From positions 1 to 41,260 of IMG/VR virus record IMGVR_UViG_3300046794_000282: 41,260 bases of DNA; one strand, 5' to 3'. Made by a program: the position numbers and the translations under genes. This DNA is from a virus. This document shows, one piece after another, positions 29,494-35,452 of this stretch; the stretch's first letter is position 1; each line of letters starts with the position of its first letter. Under the pieces are notes generated by a model. The model saw only the letters and a list, made by a program, of their open reading frames with translations. It did not search any database and was not told the DNA's origin.

Positions 29494-30669
29494 ATGTCCG
29501 AAGCAATTAACAAAGCCCTCGACTCGATCGAGGCTAAGCTGCAAAAAATGTCCGAGCAGGCCGACAACGAAATGAAGTCGCTCGGCAAGGTGACCACCGA
29601 AACCAAGGCCGCGATCGACGCCCTGGGTGTCGAGCAGCGCACCATGGCCGACCGTCTGCTGCAGCTCGAGCAGAAACAGTCCGCCAAGCAGGACGACGAG
29701 ACGCCGAAAGCCGAGAGCTGGGGTGAACAGTTCATCAAATCGGCCACTTACAAGAGCCTGCTGGGCGCGGGCGCCCAGTCGTTCGGTCGCGCATCGGTCG
29801 AAGTAAAGAACACCGTCACCAACGCCATCGGCAACACCTTCAGCGAGCGTCGTCCGGGCATCGTCGAGGGCGCGTTCCGGGTCTTCACCATCGAAGACCT
29901 GCTGACCGCAATCCCGACCTCGTCGAATGCAATCGACTGGGTGCGCGAGAACGTGTTCACCAACGCCGCGGCCGAAACGGCCGAGGGCGGCGCCATGCCG
30001 CAGTCGAGCATCACCTTCGCGCCGGGCACCATGCCGGTCCAGAACGTGGGCCACTTCATCAAGATCACCCGCCAGCTGGCGATGGACAACGCCGCCCTGG
30101 CTGCGTTCATCAATCGCCGCATGGTCTACGGCGTGAACCTGCGCGCGGAGACGCAGATCGTCGGCGGCAACGGCACCAACCCGAACCTGTCGGGCCTGAC
30201 CAATGCCGGCAATTTCACGGCGCACGGCTATACGGCTGCCACCCTGACCGCCGCCGGCCTGTCGGCAACCAACCGCTTCGACCTGATCGGCAAGATGATC
30301 GGCGACTGTGCGCTGGCCGACTACCCGGCTGACGTCGTGATCCTGAATACCGCCGACTGGTGGACCATGCGCCTGGCCAAGGACAACCAGGGTCGCTACC
30401 TGCTGGGTGATCCGGGCTCGAACGTCGTGCCGAGCCTGTTCGGTCGCCCGGTCGTGGCCTCGAACGCCATGGTCGCTGGCAAGGTGTGGGTGGGCTCGCT
30501 GTCGCAGGCTGCCACGCTGCACAACCGCGAAGGCATCGCACTGGATCTGTCGGATTCGGACGAGAACAACTTCCAGCTGGGCCTGGTGACCGTCCGCGCA
30601 ATGCGCCGCATGGCGCTGACCGTCGAGAAGCCGGCCGCCGCCCGTTACGGCGACCTGGTCCCGGCGTAA
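29494..30669 (+). CDS. Major capsid protein, HK97 fold
   Basis: A 391-residue protein. Residues 1-75 are a charged coiled-coil delta domain (IEAKLQKMSEQADNEMKSLG) that serves as internal scaffold. The HK97 core follows, with typical stretches VREN, EGGAMPQSSITFAP, KITRQLAMDN and LYLLGDP-like RYLLGDPGSN. GGAGA precedes the start. The length agrees with HK97 gp5 (385). Confidence 0.95.
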   Translation: MSEAINKALDSIEAKLQKMSEQADNEMKSLGKVTTETKAAIDALGVEQRTMADRLLQLEQKQSAKQDDETPKAESWGEQFIKSATYKSLLGAGAQSFGRASVEVKNTVTNAIGNTFSERRPGIVEGAFRVFTIEDLLTAIPTSSNAIDWVRENVFTNAAAETAEGGAMPQSSITFAPGTMPVQNVGHFIKITRQLAMDNAALAAFINRRMVYGVNLRAETQIVGGNGTNPNLSGLTNAGNFTAHGYTAATLTAAGLSATNRFDLIGKMIGDCALADYPADVVILNTADWWTMRLAKDNQGRYLLGDPGSNVVPSLFGRPVVASNAMVAGKVWVGSLSQAATLHNREGIALDLSDSDENNFQLGLVTVRAMRRMALTVEKPAAARYGDLVPA

Positions 30670-31035: not shown

Positions 31036-31230
31036 ATGAGCCCCGCCGACGCTGCCCTGGTCGCCTTCGTGCGCGCCGAGGCTGCGGCGCCGGGCGCTGT
31101 GATCGTCGCCGTCAAGGGCAGGGTGGCGATCTTCCCCGAAGACATAGTCGGCAAATCCGACGATGAGCTGCTTTCGTTTATCGAAGCGCGGCTCGCTGAA
31201 CGAATCCCTCACATCAAGAGAACCCAATGA
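31036..31230 (+). CDS. Hypothetical protein, 64 aa
   Basis: A small alpha/beta protein (VIVAVKGRVAIFPEDIVG ... LLSFIEARLAERI). No family recognised. It starts 3 bp after the preceding stop and overlaps the next gene by ATGA. Its role in head assembly is inferred from position only. Confidence 0.55.
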   Translation: MSPADAALVAFVRAEAAAPGAVIVAVKGRVAIFPEDIVGKSDDELLSFIEARLAERIPHIKRTQ

Positions 31231-31697
31231 GCGCCAATACCGACGCATTCGAAAACAAACTGATTGACTTCCTGTTCCGTGGTCAGGCGCTCGGTCTGGC
31301 GAACACCACTGCCGCCGCCGGCACCGGACCGTCGACGCTGTACGTGGGCCTGATCACCGCTGCTGGCAGCGACGCCGCAGTCGGCACCGAAGTCACCGGC
31401 GGCAGCTATGCGCGCGTGGCGGTGACGTCCAGTCTGGCGAACTGGGCGGGCACGCAGGGCGCGGGCACCACGACCGCGTCGACCGGCTCCAGCGGCACCA
31501 CGTCGAACAACAACGCGATCACCTTCCCGACGCCGACGGCGGCCTGGGGCCAGGTGGTCGAGTGGGGCATCTGGGACTCGCAGACCGGTGGCACCGAGCT
31601 GATCCGCTCCGCGCTGGGCACGGCCAAGACGATCAACAACGGCGACCCCGCGCCGTCCTTCGCAGCCGGCGCGCTGACCTACCAGATCGACAACTAA
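31227..31697 (+). CDS. Phage structural protein (Gp80/tail-fibre-like family)
   Basis: A 156-residue protein with the pattern ENKLIDFLFRGQA, TLYVGLITAA, GTEVTGGSYARVAV, ANWAGTQ and a final INNGDPAPSFAAGAL. This family is widespread in phages and carried as head decoration or tail-fibre-like protein; the exact location in the virion is not fixed. Here it lies between capsid and connector genes, which favours a head-surface position. Confidence 0.7.
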   Translation: MSANTDAFENKLIDFLFRGQALGLANTTAAAGTGPSTLYVGLITAAGSDAAVGTEVTGGSYARVAVTSSLANWAGTQGAGTTTASTGSSGTTSNNNAITFPTPTAAWGQVVEWGIWDSQTGGTELIRSALGTAKTINNGDPAPSFAAGALTYQIDN

Positions 31698-31703
31698 ACC
31701 GCC

Positions 31704-32144
31704 ATGTTGACGACGTCCACTTTTGCCGCGGCCCCGTCGGAAGTGGACGGGCGCTTCTACGTCACCGAAACCCACCTCGCCGACGATGGCCAGAAATATT
31801 CCTACACCTACCTGTGCGACCCGACGACGACCGATCCGCAAATGGTCCTAGAGGAACGCGCGGACAAGATCAACGATACGCTGCAGAAGCGGGCTAACGC
31901 GAAGCAGCTGGCAGAAGGCACACTCGTTCCGCTGACCCGGTTCGAACTCTTGAGCCGCTTCACCGTCGAGGAACGCGTTGCCATTCGTGCGCTGGGTAAT
32001 ACCGATCCGATCGTCTTCGACTTCATGGACCTGATGCGCCAAAGCGGCAACGTGACCCACGCGAACGCCCGCGCCGGCCTGGCGTATCTCGTGTCCGTGG
32101 GTGCTATCAGCGCCGAGCGCGCCACCGTGATTGGAGCTGAATAA
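31704..32144 (+). CDS. Hypothetical protein, 146 aa
   Basis: The first half has GRFYVTETHLADDGQKYSYTYLCDP, the second half is helical with VEERVAIRALGNTDP and MDLMRQSGN. Proteins of this type accompany the preceding structural gene in related phages and have no assigned function. Its stop overlaps the next start as TAATG. Confidence 0.6.
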   Translation: MLTTSTFAAAPSEVDGRFYVTETHLADDGQKYSYTYLCDPTTTDPQMVLEERADKINDTLQKRANAKQLAEGTLVPLTRFELLSRFTVEERVAIRALGNTDPIVFDFMDLMRQSGNVTHANARAGLAYLVSVGAISAERATVIGAE

Positions 32145-33427
32145 TGGGCGTTCCGTATTACGTCAAAGTGGGCGGTAGCGACTCGGCTGACGGTCTGACC
32201 TGGGCCACGGCCAAAGCGACAATAACCGGCGCGTACAACGTAATGGTCAACGTCGACGACGTGTGCTACGTGGGCCACAACGTAGTCGATGCTACGACAG
32301 GCTGGGCGCTGGATGGCGGCCTCGCGTTTGTAAGCATTGACGCCACCCTCATGCCGGGGACACTCTCGGCGCGCGCGGGTGCAAGTTCGACGGCCAACGT
32401 ACCAAATGGTACTGGCTATGTCGAGGGGATTTACTTCTCCAGAACGACCGCTGCGAACTTGGTGTTTGCGGCAACCCGGACCAAGTTCAAGAGCTGCCAG
32501 ATCACGGCCAATGCCAGCAACAATGTGGCGGCGGCCATCACGGTCGGCAAGTCCACTCAAGGGATGCACCTGGAGTTCGTGGACACGGACTTCAAGTTCA
32601 CCGGGGCGGCGCAATCCATCAGCCTGTCCAACCCGAGAATGATCGTCATGGGCGGGTCCGTGAGCACCACGGCGGGAAAGCACGCCTGTCTGCTGAGCAT
32701 GCTCGGTGGTTCCAGCACCCTCCACGTCGACATCCTGTTCGATGGCGTGGACTTCACCGGATTTGACGCAACGTCGCTGCTCAACGCCACGTTCCCGGCG
32801 TCGGGCACTGTGGTTTTTCGTCGCTGTAAATTCAATGCGTCTTTTGCAGGGGTGCTGAGTTCAGGCGGGGTGTCGAGCGATGCATTTCAGGTCCTCATGC
32901 TGGAGTGCGACGTGGCGGGTGTCGCGCCCACGTATCGATATGAGCTGGACACGCGCTGCGGGACCATCAAGGCCGGCACCAGCACCTATCGGGTGGGTGG
33001 TGCTTCGATTTCGGGGTTCAACGTAGCATGGAACGTCGCAATTACTACGTTCCAGCCGCCGCTGGCCATGTGCACGCCCGATCTGACGGCGTACAACGAA
33101 AACATCACGTCGCCGGTGAGCGTGACAATCGAGTTCCTCGCGCAAAAGTCAAATCTGATGGCGTACGAGGCGTGGCTGGAGATTTCGTACCTGGTCGACG
33201 CCACCTCTTCGAAGGGTGCTTTTGCGACGTCCTATCCCGCCTCGTATGTCAGTCGCAATGTGGCTGTGCAGTCGTCGAGCGCAACTTGGGTCGGGACACC
33301 CGCTGGTTATTATCCATACAAGATCACCCTCACCATGAGTCCCAAGCAGATAGGCGCCCTGACCGCGCAGCTCAAAATGGCGGGCGCGTTCGGCTTCATT
33401 GTTGATCCGTACCTGACGGTGGCCTGA
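32144..33427 (+). CDS. Beta-helix-like surface protein of the head region
   Basis: A 427-residue protein that begins YYVKVGGSDSADGLTWATA, the usual opening of right-handed parallel beta-helix (pectate-lyase-like) proteins. Repeated short strands with Gly, Ser, Thr and Asn fill the middle, and residues 320-425 form a different beta-domain. No catalytic residues could be assigned. Because the gene lies between capsid and connectors, not at the tail tip, it may be a head fibre or surface decoration that binds glycans. It overlaps both neighbours by one base. Confidence 0.62.
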   Translation: MGVPYYVKVGGSDSADGLTWATAKATITGAYNVMVNVDDVCYVGHNVVDATTGWALDGGLAFVSIDATLMPGTLSARAGASSTANVPNGTGYVEGIYFSRTTAANLVFAATRTKFKSCQITANASNNVAAAITVGKSTQGMHLEFVDTDFKFTGAAQSISLSNPRMIVMGGSVSTTAGKHACLLSMLGGSSTLHVDILFDGVDFTGFDATSLLNATFPASGTVVFRRCKFNASFAGVLSSGGVSSDAFQVLMLECDVAGVAPTYRYELDTRCGTIKAGTSTYRVGGASISGFNVAWNVAITTFQPPLAMCTPDLTAYNENITSPVSVTIEFLAQKSNLMAYEAWLEISYLVDATSSKGAFATSYPASYVSRNVAVQSSSATWVGTPAGYYPYKITLTMSPKQIGALTAQLKMAGAFGFIVDPYLTVA

Positions 33428-34716
33428 TGGTCGGCCTGTACACCTCGCGAGGTGCAATCCTCCAGACTGACCCGGGGTCGTACTACCTGGCGTCCGGTCA
33501 GGTGGTGCGTGCCGTAGTGCCCGCGGCTGCGGACACTTCGCTGACCGGCGTGGCGCAGGCCGTGGCCACCGCCGCAGCATCACTCGCGGTCACGACCGCT
33601 GCAGCCGCGCTGTCCGGATCGGCCCTGGTTGCCACATCGGGTTCTGGCACCCTGAGCACCAGCGTGCGCATGGCCGGCGGTGCCTACGCCATCGCGAGTA
33701 CGACTGGCGTCCTCACCACCGCAGTCCGTTTCACCGGCGCGGCCCAGGCTGCGGCAACCGGTTCGGGTGCGCTGTCGACTGCCGTGCGATTCGCTGGTGC
33801 TGCTGCGGTCGTCGCGGCCGCCGCCGGCGCGCTGTCCACCTCGATCAAACTGACCGGCGCAGCAGCCGCACAATCGTCCGCCTCGGCCACCCTGACTGGT
33901 ACCGCCACCGCGCTGGCCGGAACCGCTGCGTGCGTCGCTGCTGGTACTGGAACGCTGACGACTGCCGTACGCCTGGCGGGTAGCGGTGTCGCACTGGCGG
34001 CTGGCGCTGGCGGGCTGACAACCATCGTCCGCCTAACCGGTACAGCCACTGCTCGATCGACCGGATCGGCAAGTTTTTCCAGCGTCGCGGCGCTCTTTAC
34101 GGGGACGGCAGCAGCGCAAGCGAGCAGCACCGGTGTACTCACGACCAAGATCGGACTGCAGGGCATTGCCACTGTGGTGGCATCGGCGCTTGGCGCGCTG
34201 AGCAACAGTACTCCGCCTCAACCGGGTCATGTCATCGATGTGTCGCACATCGCCCTGGACCGCATCGTCGTATTCGACGGCAGCGGCAGCAGGGTGGTTG
34301 TGTTCGAAGGAAGTGGGAGCCGGACAGTGATTTTCGAAGGCAGCGGCAACAGAGTGAGGTTTGAGGAGATGAGTGTGAGTGCAAAAGTACCGGAGAAGGT
34401 TGGCGAGAAGTGGACGGTCGACCGCGACCCGGACGAGATCAGCTACTACGCCGCGGACATCACCCAGGAACTCGTCGACCGCAACACGACTGCCGATCCG
34501 GACAAGATCACTCCGGTGCTGTTCGGCGTGGAGCTTCTTGAAGGCCCCGAGCTCCAGGTGGCGACGATCGACGGAGTGCAACGCACGTTCGTGGTGGTGA
34601 AACTCGGCGGCGTCCCGGAAGAGCTGCCTGCAGACTGGCGTTGGGTGGCCCGCGTCGGCTGCATGAACGGCGAGCGCTTCGATAAAACAACCTGGTTCAA
34701 CAAGGTCGACCCCTGA
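33427..34716 (+). CDS. Repeat protein with 20-residue units fused to a decoration-like domain
   Basis: A 429-residue protein in three parts. Residues about 38-255 carry some eleven copies of a 20-residue unit with the pattern (L/F)(T/A)G-x-A ... G-x-L(S/T)T-x-(V/I)(R/K), Ala/Thr/Gly-rich. Residues about 279-312 have three 10-residue units VVFEGSGSR-like. The last 115 residues (WTVDRDPDEISYYAADITQEL ... VARVGCMNGERFDKTTWFN) resemble a small protein that is a separate gene in many phages. The repeats probably form a solenoid or fibre on the head. An in-frame GTG/ATG near 34369, right after TTGAGGAG, might allow separate translation of the last domain. Confidence 0.65.
   Translation: MVGLYTSRGAILQTDPGSYYLASGQVVRAVVPAAADTSLTGVAQAVATAAASLAVTTAAAALSGSALVATSGSGTLSTSVRMAGGAYAIASTTGVLTTAVRFTGAAQAAATGSGALSTAVRFAGAAAVVAAAAGALSTSIKLTGAAAAQSSASATLTGTATALAGTAACVAAGTGTLTTAVRLAGSGVALAAGAGGLTTIVRLTGTATARSTGSASFSSVAALFTGTAAAQASSTGVLTTKIGLQGIATVVASALGALSNSTPPQPGHVIDVSHIALDRIVVFDGSGSRVVVFEGSGSRTVIFEGSGNRVRFEEMSVSAKVPEKVGEKWTVDRDPDEISYYAADITQELVDRNTTADPDKITPVLFGVELLEGPELQVATIDGVQRTFVVVKLGGVPEELPADWRWVARVGCMNGERFDKTTWFNKVDP
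33538..34192 (+). repeat. 60-bp coding repeats (20-residue units)
   Basis: Roughly eleven units, diverged at DNA level but clear in protein, for example FTGAAQAAATGSGALSTAVR and LAGTAACVAAGTGTLTTAVR. Such arrays can change copy number by recombination. Confidence 0.75.
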
Positions 34717-34892
34717 TGATCAAGATCGCTGACAACCCGGCCGTGCGCGCGCAGCTCGCGCAGGCCACCTCGCAGGCCGATGAAATACCGCGGCCGCGCG
34801 CGAAAGCGCCGGAGTATGCCCGCGCCCCGGCGGCGCCCGGGCCGCAGCCCGCCGGCAGCCGGCCTCCCGCGACTCAAGGAAGCTCCCGATGA
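34716..34892 (+). CDS. Small Pro/Ala-rich protein, 58 aa
   Basis: It starts inside the previous stop (TGATG) and ends over the next start (ATGA), so both junctions are of the coupled type seen all along this operon. The product starts MIKIADNPAVRAQLAQATSQ and continues as an Arg/Pro/Ala-rich tail. No family recognised. The tight overlaps are the main support. Confidence 0.6.
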   Translation: MIKIADNPAVRAQLAQATSQADEIPRPRAKAPEYARAPAAPGPQPAGSRPPATQGSSR

Positions 34893-35452
34893 CCGTACGT
34901 GAAATCTCTCCTCCCGTCGAGTTGGCGGTAACTCTGGCCATGGCCAAGGACCAGCTCCGCATCGGCCAGTACGACACCGCGTTTGATTCGCAGCTGACAA
35001 TCTGGATCGCTGGTATTACCGAGGAGGCAGAGCACGCGTCGGGACGGGTGTTCGTCAACCGACCGATGCGCGTCACGCTGGACCGGTTCGAGCCCTCGAT
35101 CCGCTTGAGCGCGCCGACCTTCAGCGTCGAGAACGTGAAGTTCGTCGACGTCGATGGCCAAGAACGCCTCCTGGCTCCCGCCGATTACTTCGCCGACATG
35201 GTGACCGAACCAGGCTATGTGATACCGGCCACTGGCAAGGCCTGGCCGGCAACGCTCGCGCACGCAAATACCGTGACGGTCGACTTCACCGGCGGTTACG
35301 GTCCCGACGCCAGCACGGTGCCGGCTGCGGCCAGGCTGTACATCCTGGCGCGCCTGACGGAGCTGTGGGATCCGGCTGTGAAGGAGTTCAAGGAAACCGT
35401 GCGTTCAAACTTCACCCAGCGCCTGCTGGACAAGCTGAAGGTGTACGGATGA
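34889..35452 (+). CDS. Head-tail connector, HK97 gp6-like
   Basis: A 187-residue protein: VTLAMAKDQLRIGQYDTAFDSQLTIWI with AEHASGR, then a beta part ending in VDFTGGYG and the helical LYILARLTELWD. This helical start and FTGGYG region is typical for the gp6-like adaptor that docks under the portal. It is followed by the head-closure gene with an ATGA overlap. Confidence 0.85.
   Translation: MTVREISPPVELAVTLAMAKDQLRIGQYDTAFDSQLTIWIAGITEEAEHASGRVFVNRPMRVTLDRFEPSIRLSAPTFSVENVKFVDVDGQERLLAPADYFADMVTEPGYVIPATGKAWPATLAHANTVTVDFTGGYGPDASTVPAAARLYILARLTELWDPAVKEFKETVRSNFTQRLLDKLKVYG

Follow-up and report, generated by a model that had tools for sequence, protein, structure and literature searches.

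A periodic phage protein fused to a putative neck-ring adaptor keeps a conserved internal ribosome-binding site and start codon

The neck fibres of the Ralstonia podophage GP4 reportedly contain a rope protein. PDB entry 8JOU, which covers fibre I of this phage and its adaptor (gp80, PF23140; gp77, PF23148), holds three adaptor chains and ten gp80 chains, numbers that would fit a fifth of a 15-mer together with five dimers of the bead on each fibre. The Anabaena myophage A-1(L) has a pentadecameric neck ring bearing five bead-chain fibres (PMC10966104), built from ring and fibre proteins of other folds and with no rope protein described, and DEV shows a 15:12 mismatch like that of GP4 (PMC10925440). 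In the Alishewanella phage LSH1, gp34, gp35 and gp36 were proposed to be a payload, a GP4-like fibril protein and an Ig-fold anchor, each with its own gene; no rope was recognized in the C-terminal region of gp34, which is of low confidence (PMC13243795). A precedent of another kind is lysA (Lysin241) of mycobacteriophage Ms6, where a shorter protein is initiated in frame inside the gene, at a start served by a ribosome-binding site of its own (PMC3111421).

The window analyzed here is the whole of a 41,260-base virus record (IMG/VR record IMGVR_UViG_3300046794_000282) that includes an HK97-type head module and a tape measure. Between its capsid and connector genes lies a gene for a putative fibre rope fused to a putative adaptor (Table 1), the ATG of which overlaps the TGA of the preceding gene as TGATG. 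As in GP4, a bead, a rope and a small Ig-like adaptor would be present in one module, and the payload, fibril and anchor proposed for LSH1 would have their like here. Unlike GP4, the phage of the window has a long-tail gene set, and its adaptor, of far diverged sequence, is joined covalently to the rope and provided with an internal start. Ms6 lysA encodes a lysis enzyme, whereas the gene described here would be a structural fusion.

Table 1. Positions of the rope-adaptor gene, its parts and its neighbours in the window.
Feature	Position	Strand	Remarks
Major capsid protein	29494..30669	+	Context
gp80-like putative fibre bead protein	31227..31697	+	PF23140, E 5e-33; PDB 8JOU chain a
427-aa protein directly upstream of the rope	32144..33427	+	No family match
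Fused rope-adaptor gene	33427..34716	+	Open frame, 429 aa
Eleven 20/21-residue Ala/Thr/Gly units	33532..34197	+	Residues 36–257; two predicted β strands per unit
IDVS..I...R motif between array and decamers	34228..34263	+	Residues ≈268–279; conserved in the alignment of relatives
Three decamers, IVVFDGSGSR / VVVFEGSGSR / TVIFEGSGNR	34264..34353	+	Residues 280–309; end the rope protein in split relatives
Conserved internal Shine-Dalgarno-like AGTGAGG	34353..34359	+	Made of rare AGA/AGG Arg codons
Second Shine-Dalgarno-like GAGGAG	34363..34368	+	Directly 5' of ATG 34369, six bases before GTG 34375
Internal in-frame ATG (Met315)	34369..34371	+	Start place of the stand-alone adaptor gene; alternative GTG at 34375
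Putative adaptor (Gp77-like), Ig-like β domain	34369..34716	+	115 aa from Met315; predicted short product
Head-tail adaptor Ad1-type connector	34889..35452	+	Context

A preliminary description made from the sequence had counted about eleven units of 20 residues and three FEGSGSR-type decamers ahead of the final domain, which was confirmed by lag identity, shuffling and listing of the units. Two of the eleven units are 21 residues long, and the first two are degenerate. Identity at a lag of 20 residues is 0.32, compared to a maximum of 0.27 at any lag over 5000 shuffles, and the substitution-score z at this lag is ≈10, which places the period far above shuffled sequence. AlphaFold2 predicted two β strands per 20-residue unit with moderate confidence (pLDDT ≈63–76), and the C-terminal domain, folded alone, gave a well-defined β domain (pLDDT 94). 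The whole 429-aa protein matched nothing in Pfam or PHROGs, and a search of INPHARED with the protein or its domain gave no match. Since the decamers terminate the rope gene in phages where rope and adaptor are split into two genes, we assign them to the C-terminus of the rope protein. The idea that they are always three, fitting three ring subunits per fibre, was ruled out, since counts range from 2 to 5; fused genes mostly have three and split genes mostly four (kinship uncontrolled), as if the covalent link had substituted for one.

The gene had also been described as an array fused to a normally separate, decoration-like protein. The fusion of a separate domain stands, but its decoration-like character was not borne out: neither the protein nor the domain matched a capsid decoration family in Pfam or PHROGs, and the matches were instead to the Gp77 family and fold, within a gp80–rope–adaptor neck-fibre module. 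PF23148 (Gp77, GP4 fiber-tail adaptor) was matched by 9 of 21 aligned members, up to profile positions 2–81 of 84, and by six of ten members checked singly, with E values of 0.004–0.06, under Pfam's curated cut-off. When the AlphaFold2 model of the adaptor was submitted to Foldseek, 8jou_B, the GP4 fiber-tail adaptor, was the third PDB match; NCAM2 Ig1 ranked first and Milano collar proteins came lower in the list. The Ig-like fold by itself is common. Comparison with ten Gp77 proteins by hhalign was weak (E 0.06) and aligned only the conserved DPDE..Y..D segment. By profile and by model, the domain thus appears to resemble the GP4 adaptor family (gp77) and its fold weakly but consistently, and this weak homology, together with gene order, points to the ring as its probable place.

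More than 60 loci in IMG/VR encode the C-terminal domain, and a scan of GTDB genomes found it at two loci, both in Massilia. The tree contained 53 distinct sequences, 33 fused and 20 split, and these 20 confirm that the domain stands alone in other phages. In 17 of the 20, the adaptor gene starts at the TGA of the rope gene or a few codons from it, mostly as GAATGA, an ATGA overlap; in the other three, the adaptor start is separate from the stop of the rope. In split relatives, then, rope and ring subunit are probably made from overlapping, translationally coupled genes. Programmed frameshifting that would join the split genes was set aside by inspection, the TGA often standing directly before the adaptor ATG in the adaptor frame; the split arrangement is an ATGA overlap, that is, coupled re-initiation. 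A maximum-likelihood tree of the domain has about three to six changes between the fused and split states, the number and direction of changes being unsure because few deep branches are well supported. The spacing from GAGG to ATG is four bases longer in fused than in split genes. At one fused locus (L048, 4805–5101 and upstream), the adaptor frame is broken near the junction by a frameshift or a sequence error.

The GAGGAG beside an in-frame ATG or GTG at about 34369, which the preliminary description had pointed out, is present as described; the Shine-Dalgarno-like element kept in relatives is the AGTGAGG upstream of it. All 33 distinct fused genes have a start codon at the junction, ATG in 29 and GTG in four; 27 of them (23 ATG, 4 GTG) were counted first and the six later finds all have ATG, and the Shine-Dalgarno element was scored in the 27. 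At the fixed junction site, the median anti-Shine-Dalgarno pairing energy in these 27 genes was −6.7 kcal/mol, close to the −6.6 of split-gene starts (best candidate start), whereas background codons had −2.5 and the position ten codons farther upstream, in the same repeat phase, −3.2; only 3% of background codons reach the strength of the junction. The arginine codons at the junction are AGA or AGG in 46 of 50 cases, against 89 of 832 in the remainder of these genes (Fisher p 3e-36; the kinship of the sequences inflates the junction p-values, although separate fused clades show the pattern again). The letters of the element vary among clades (GTGAGG, ATAAGGAT, CGGAGTGAAT-GTG) while complementarity is kept, and the RNA at the internal start of the window is unusually unstructured, 193 of 200 shuffles having more structure. 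That the old Shine-Dalgarno element and start have not decayed argues for more than one protein from the fused gene. As in embedded genes of the Ms6 lysA type, an in-frame start with a Shine-Dalgarno element inside a longer gene is conserved in relatives, here in 33 of 33. The earlier suggestion that the last domain may be made alone has therefore gained strong comparative support from start codons, Shine-Dalgarno strength and AGR bias, and a free adaptor is the predicted product of the internal start.

Besides PF23140, the gp80-like protein of the window matched phrog_240 (E 3e-21) and 8JOU_a (E 2e-6). Within the clade, a gp80-family gene was found 1–3 kb upstream of period-20 ropes at 14 of 14 testable loci and at none of 27 with ropes lacking a clear 20-residue period (Fisher p 3e-11, inflated by kinship, with only three independent contrasts on well-supported branches; z20 cut-off of 5, chosen after looking, with L006 at z ≈4 and without gp80 as a borderline case). 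Relatives with enough upstream sequence were counted, and the class-20 loci L007 and L035, at contig ends, were left out. Ropes without the 20-residue period mostly show other periods. Those of period 22 have a phrog_644 protein near the same place (16/16 within the clade), which suggests that this PHROG of unknown function is a neck-fibre bead, and those of period 21, with their degenerate relatives, have a phrog_3758 protein (8/8 within the clade). Across the three classes, bead and repeat class thus agree at all 38 of the 38 loci that could be tested, which is what one would expect were each type of repeat to serve its own bead as a docking track. The adaptor tree implies about nine changes of class, and root and anchor stay homologous throughout. 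The array is best read as a track on which gp80 beads would dock. Among the three bead families, hhalign gave weak scores and showed no sequence link.

The period-22 class (RRLxVxPAxLxLxGGxVxLRxA) includes L004, L010, L011, L024, L025, L029, L036, L042, L055 and others. The class of period ≈21, with phrog_3758 ("virion structural protein") upstream, includes L013, L038, L040 and L108, and L014–L016 and L022 are degenerate. Ropes of period 14 (DFxGTFSVLAxVxR) were seen in L019, L030, L032 and L125, in L030 behind a lactonase-like β-propeller N-terminus; no bead protein was identified for these four.

The order bead, rope, adaptor gene also occurs in distant phages, namely Lessievirus BcepIL02, Pseudomonas phage Itty13, Sinorhizobium phage PBC5, phage DSL-LC06, Microcystis phage Mae-JY28 and Agrobacterium phage Atu_ph08, and the middle protein of each of the six has a signal at 20 residues or a multiple. 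As in the window, BcepIL02 (gp55-gp56-gp57) and BcepMigl (gp29/gp28/gp26) have a period-20 rope between gp80 and adaptor, but their rope and adaptor genes are separate, overlapping by one base in BcepIL02; BcepMigl gp26 is a true PF23148 member. Beads of the phrog_644 type accompany a 22-residue signal in four of six phages outside the clade, and those of the phrog_3758 type accompany periods of 20, 21 and 23, period 20 occurring in Pan4 and Mae-JY02. The rope of EBPR siphovirus 2 has a period of 38, and no array was detectable in Pam1. A strict bead-period pairing for all phages, which we had considered, fails on these last four; the exact pairing is an observation on the clade, and the association of a bead with a periodic rope is wider. 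Queries with the window protein, BcepMigl gp28 and BcepIL02 gp56 gave no credible match to a GP4 rope among PDB sequences. In Microcystis, Bernal13 and CELFI phages (L163, L165, L160), the ropes end in 6–9 copies of an R...V..E-type repeat of 8–10 residues, the likely counterpart of the FEGSGSR decamers.

In the window, the N-terminus of the rope is short, and the neighbouring gene encodes a separate 427-aa protein, which we propose, solely from its position, to be a distal payload. Among relatives the N-termini differ, including a lactonase-like propeller (L030), a laminin-G-like lectin (L034) and others without a match. The array is absent, leaving only decamers and adaptor, in L134 and in L114 and its genome counterpart L156 (Massilia alkalitolerans); these fused genes encode ≈180 aa (7800–8342 in L156). 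Together, the variable N-termini and the array-less loci support a chain in the order distal payload, rope, root decamers and anchor. The gene upstream of the decamer-adaptor gene in L156 weakly matches GDSL-lipase.

We consider it probable that the gene encodes a neck-fibre rope with gp80 beads, covalently joined to the neck-ring adaptor, and that the internal start adds free adaptor for reasons of stoichiometry. The gene would encode the cord of a GP4-type neck fibre, GP4 being the phage on which such fibres were first seen. The 20-residue units would form a β-rich rope, copies of the gp80-like bead would dock on it, and the decamers would make up its root. The C-terminal Ig-like domain would be a subunit of a ring round the head-tail connector, where the fibres are tied. 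With the start codon of the former ring-subunit gene and its ribosome-binding site still in place, the fused gene would yield two products, a long rope-adaptor and a short adaptor that is free. This is likely to serve stoichiometry, since a GP4-type ring has 15 subunits and five fibres, most ring positions being without a rope; a rope on every subunit would mean 15 ropes, a conflict that free adaptor from the internal start would remove. Plausible, but short of probable in our estimate, is the fuller proposition that the 15-versus-5 mismatch is solved from one frame by the conserved internal start, while the repeat type specifies the bead and matched pairs are swapped onto a constant root and anchor.

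The same fibre might be built from the long protein only, with an unused start at a junction that either marks a module boundary kept by homologous recombination or is left over from a recent fusion. Exchange of rope modules and of N-terminal domains is frequent in this family, and a shared boundary sequence would help it. We nevertheless find this unlikely, since the Shine-Dalgarno letters differ across fused clades with their complementarity preserved, GTG replaces ATG in one clade, and the fused adaptors have diverged to ≈60% identity, enough to erase an unused element. It is improbable to much the same degree that the array is a distal adhesin or a spacer of a neck or head fibre that binds no gp80, its co-occurrence with bead genes coming from block transfer. 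Linked genes do transfer together, and array and bead genes are only 1–3 kb apart; yet swaps affect bead and rope together, whereas other genes between and around them are common to several classes, and period 20 and gp80 are found together outside the clade too.

Least likely, and in our view very improbable, is that the C-terminal domain is a capsid decoration protein displayed on the head by the array. The place of the gene between the major capsid protein and the connectors would suit such a role, but the Gp77 and adaptor-fold matches described above, in place of any decoration family, do not, nor do the strict co-occurrence of array and bead in the clade and the gp80–rope–adaptor triad in distant phages.

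Read as a neck-fibre rope and adaptor, the gene suggests a simple genetic means of setting subunit stoichiometry across a symmetry mismatch, and a fibre built of separable modules, namely the payload, the rope with its bead, and the anchor. phrog_644 and phrog_3758 become probable fibre beads, and widespread, unannotated, low-complexity phage proteins, the periodic ropes near gp80-like genes, would gain a testable function.
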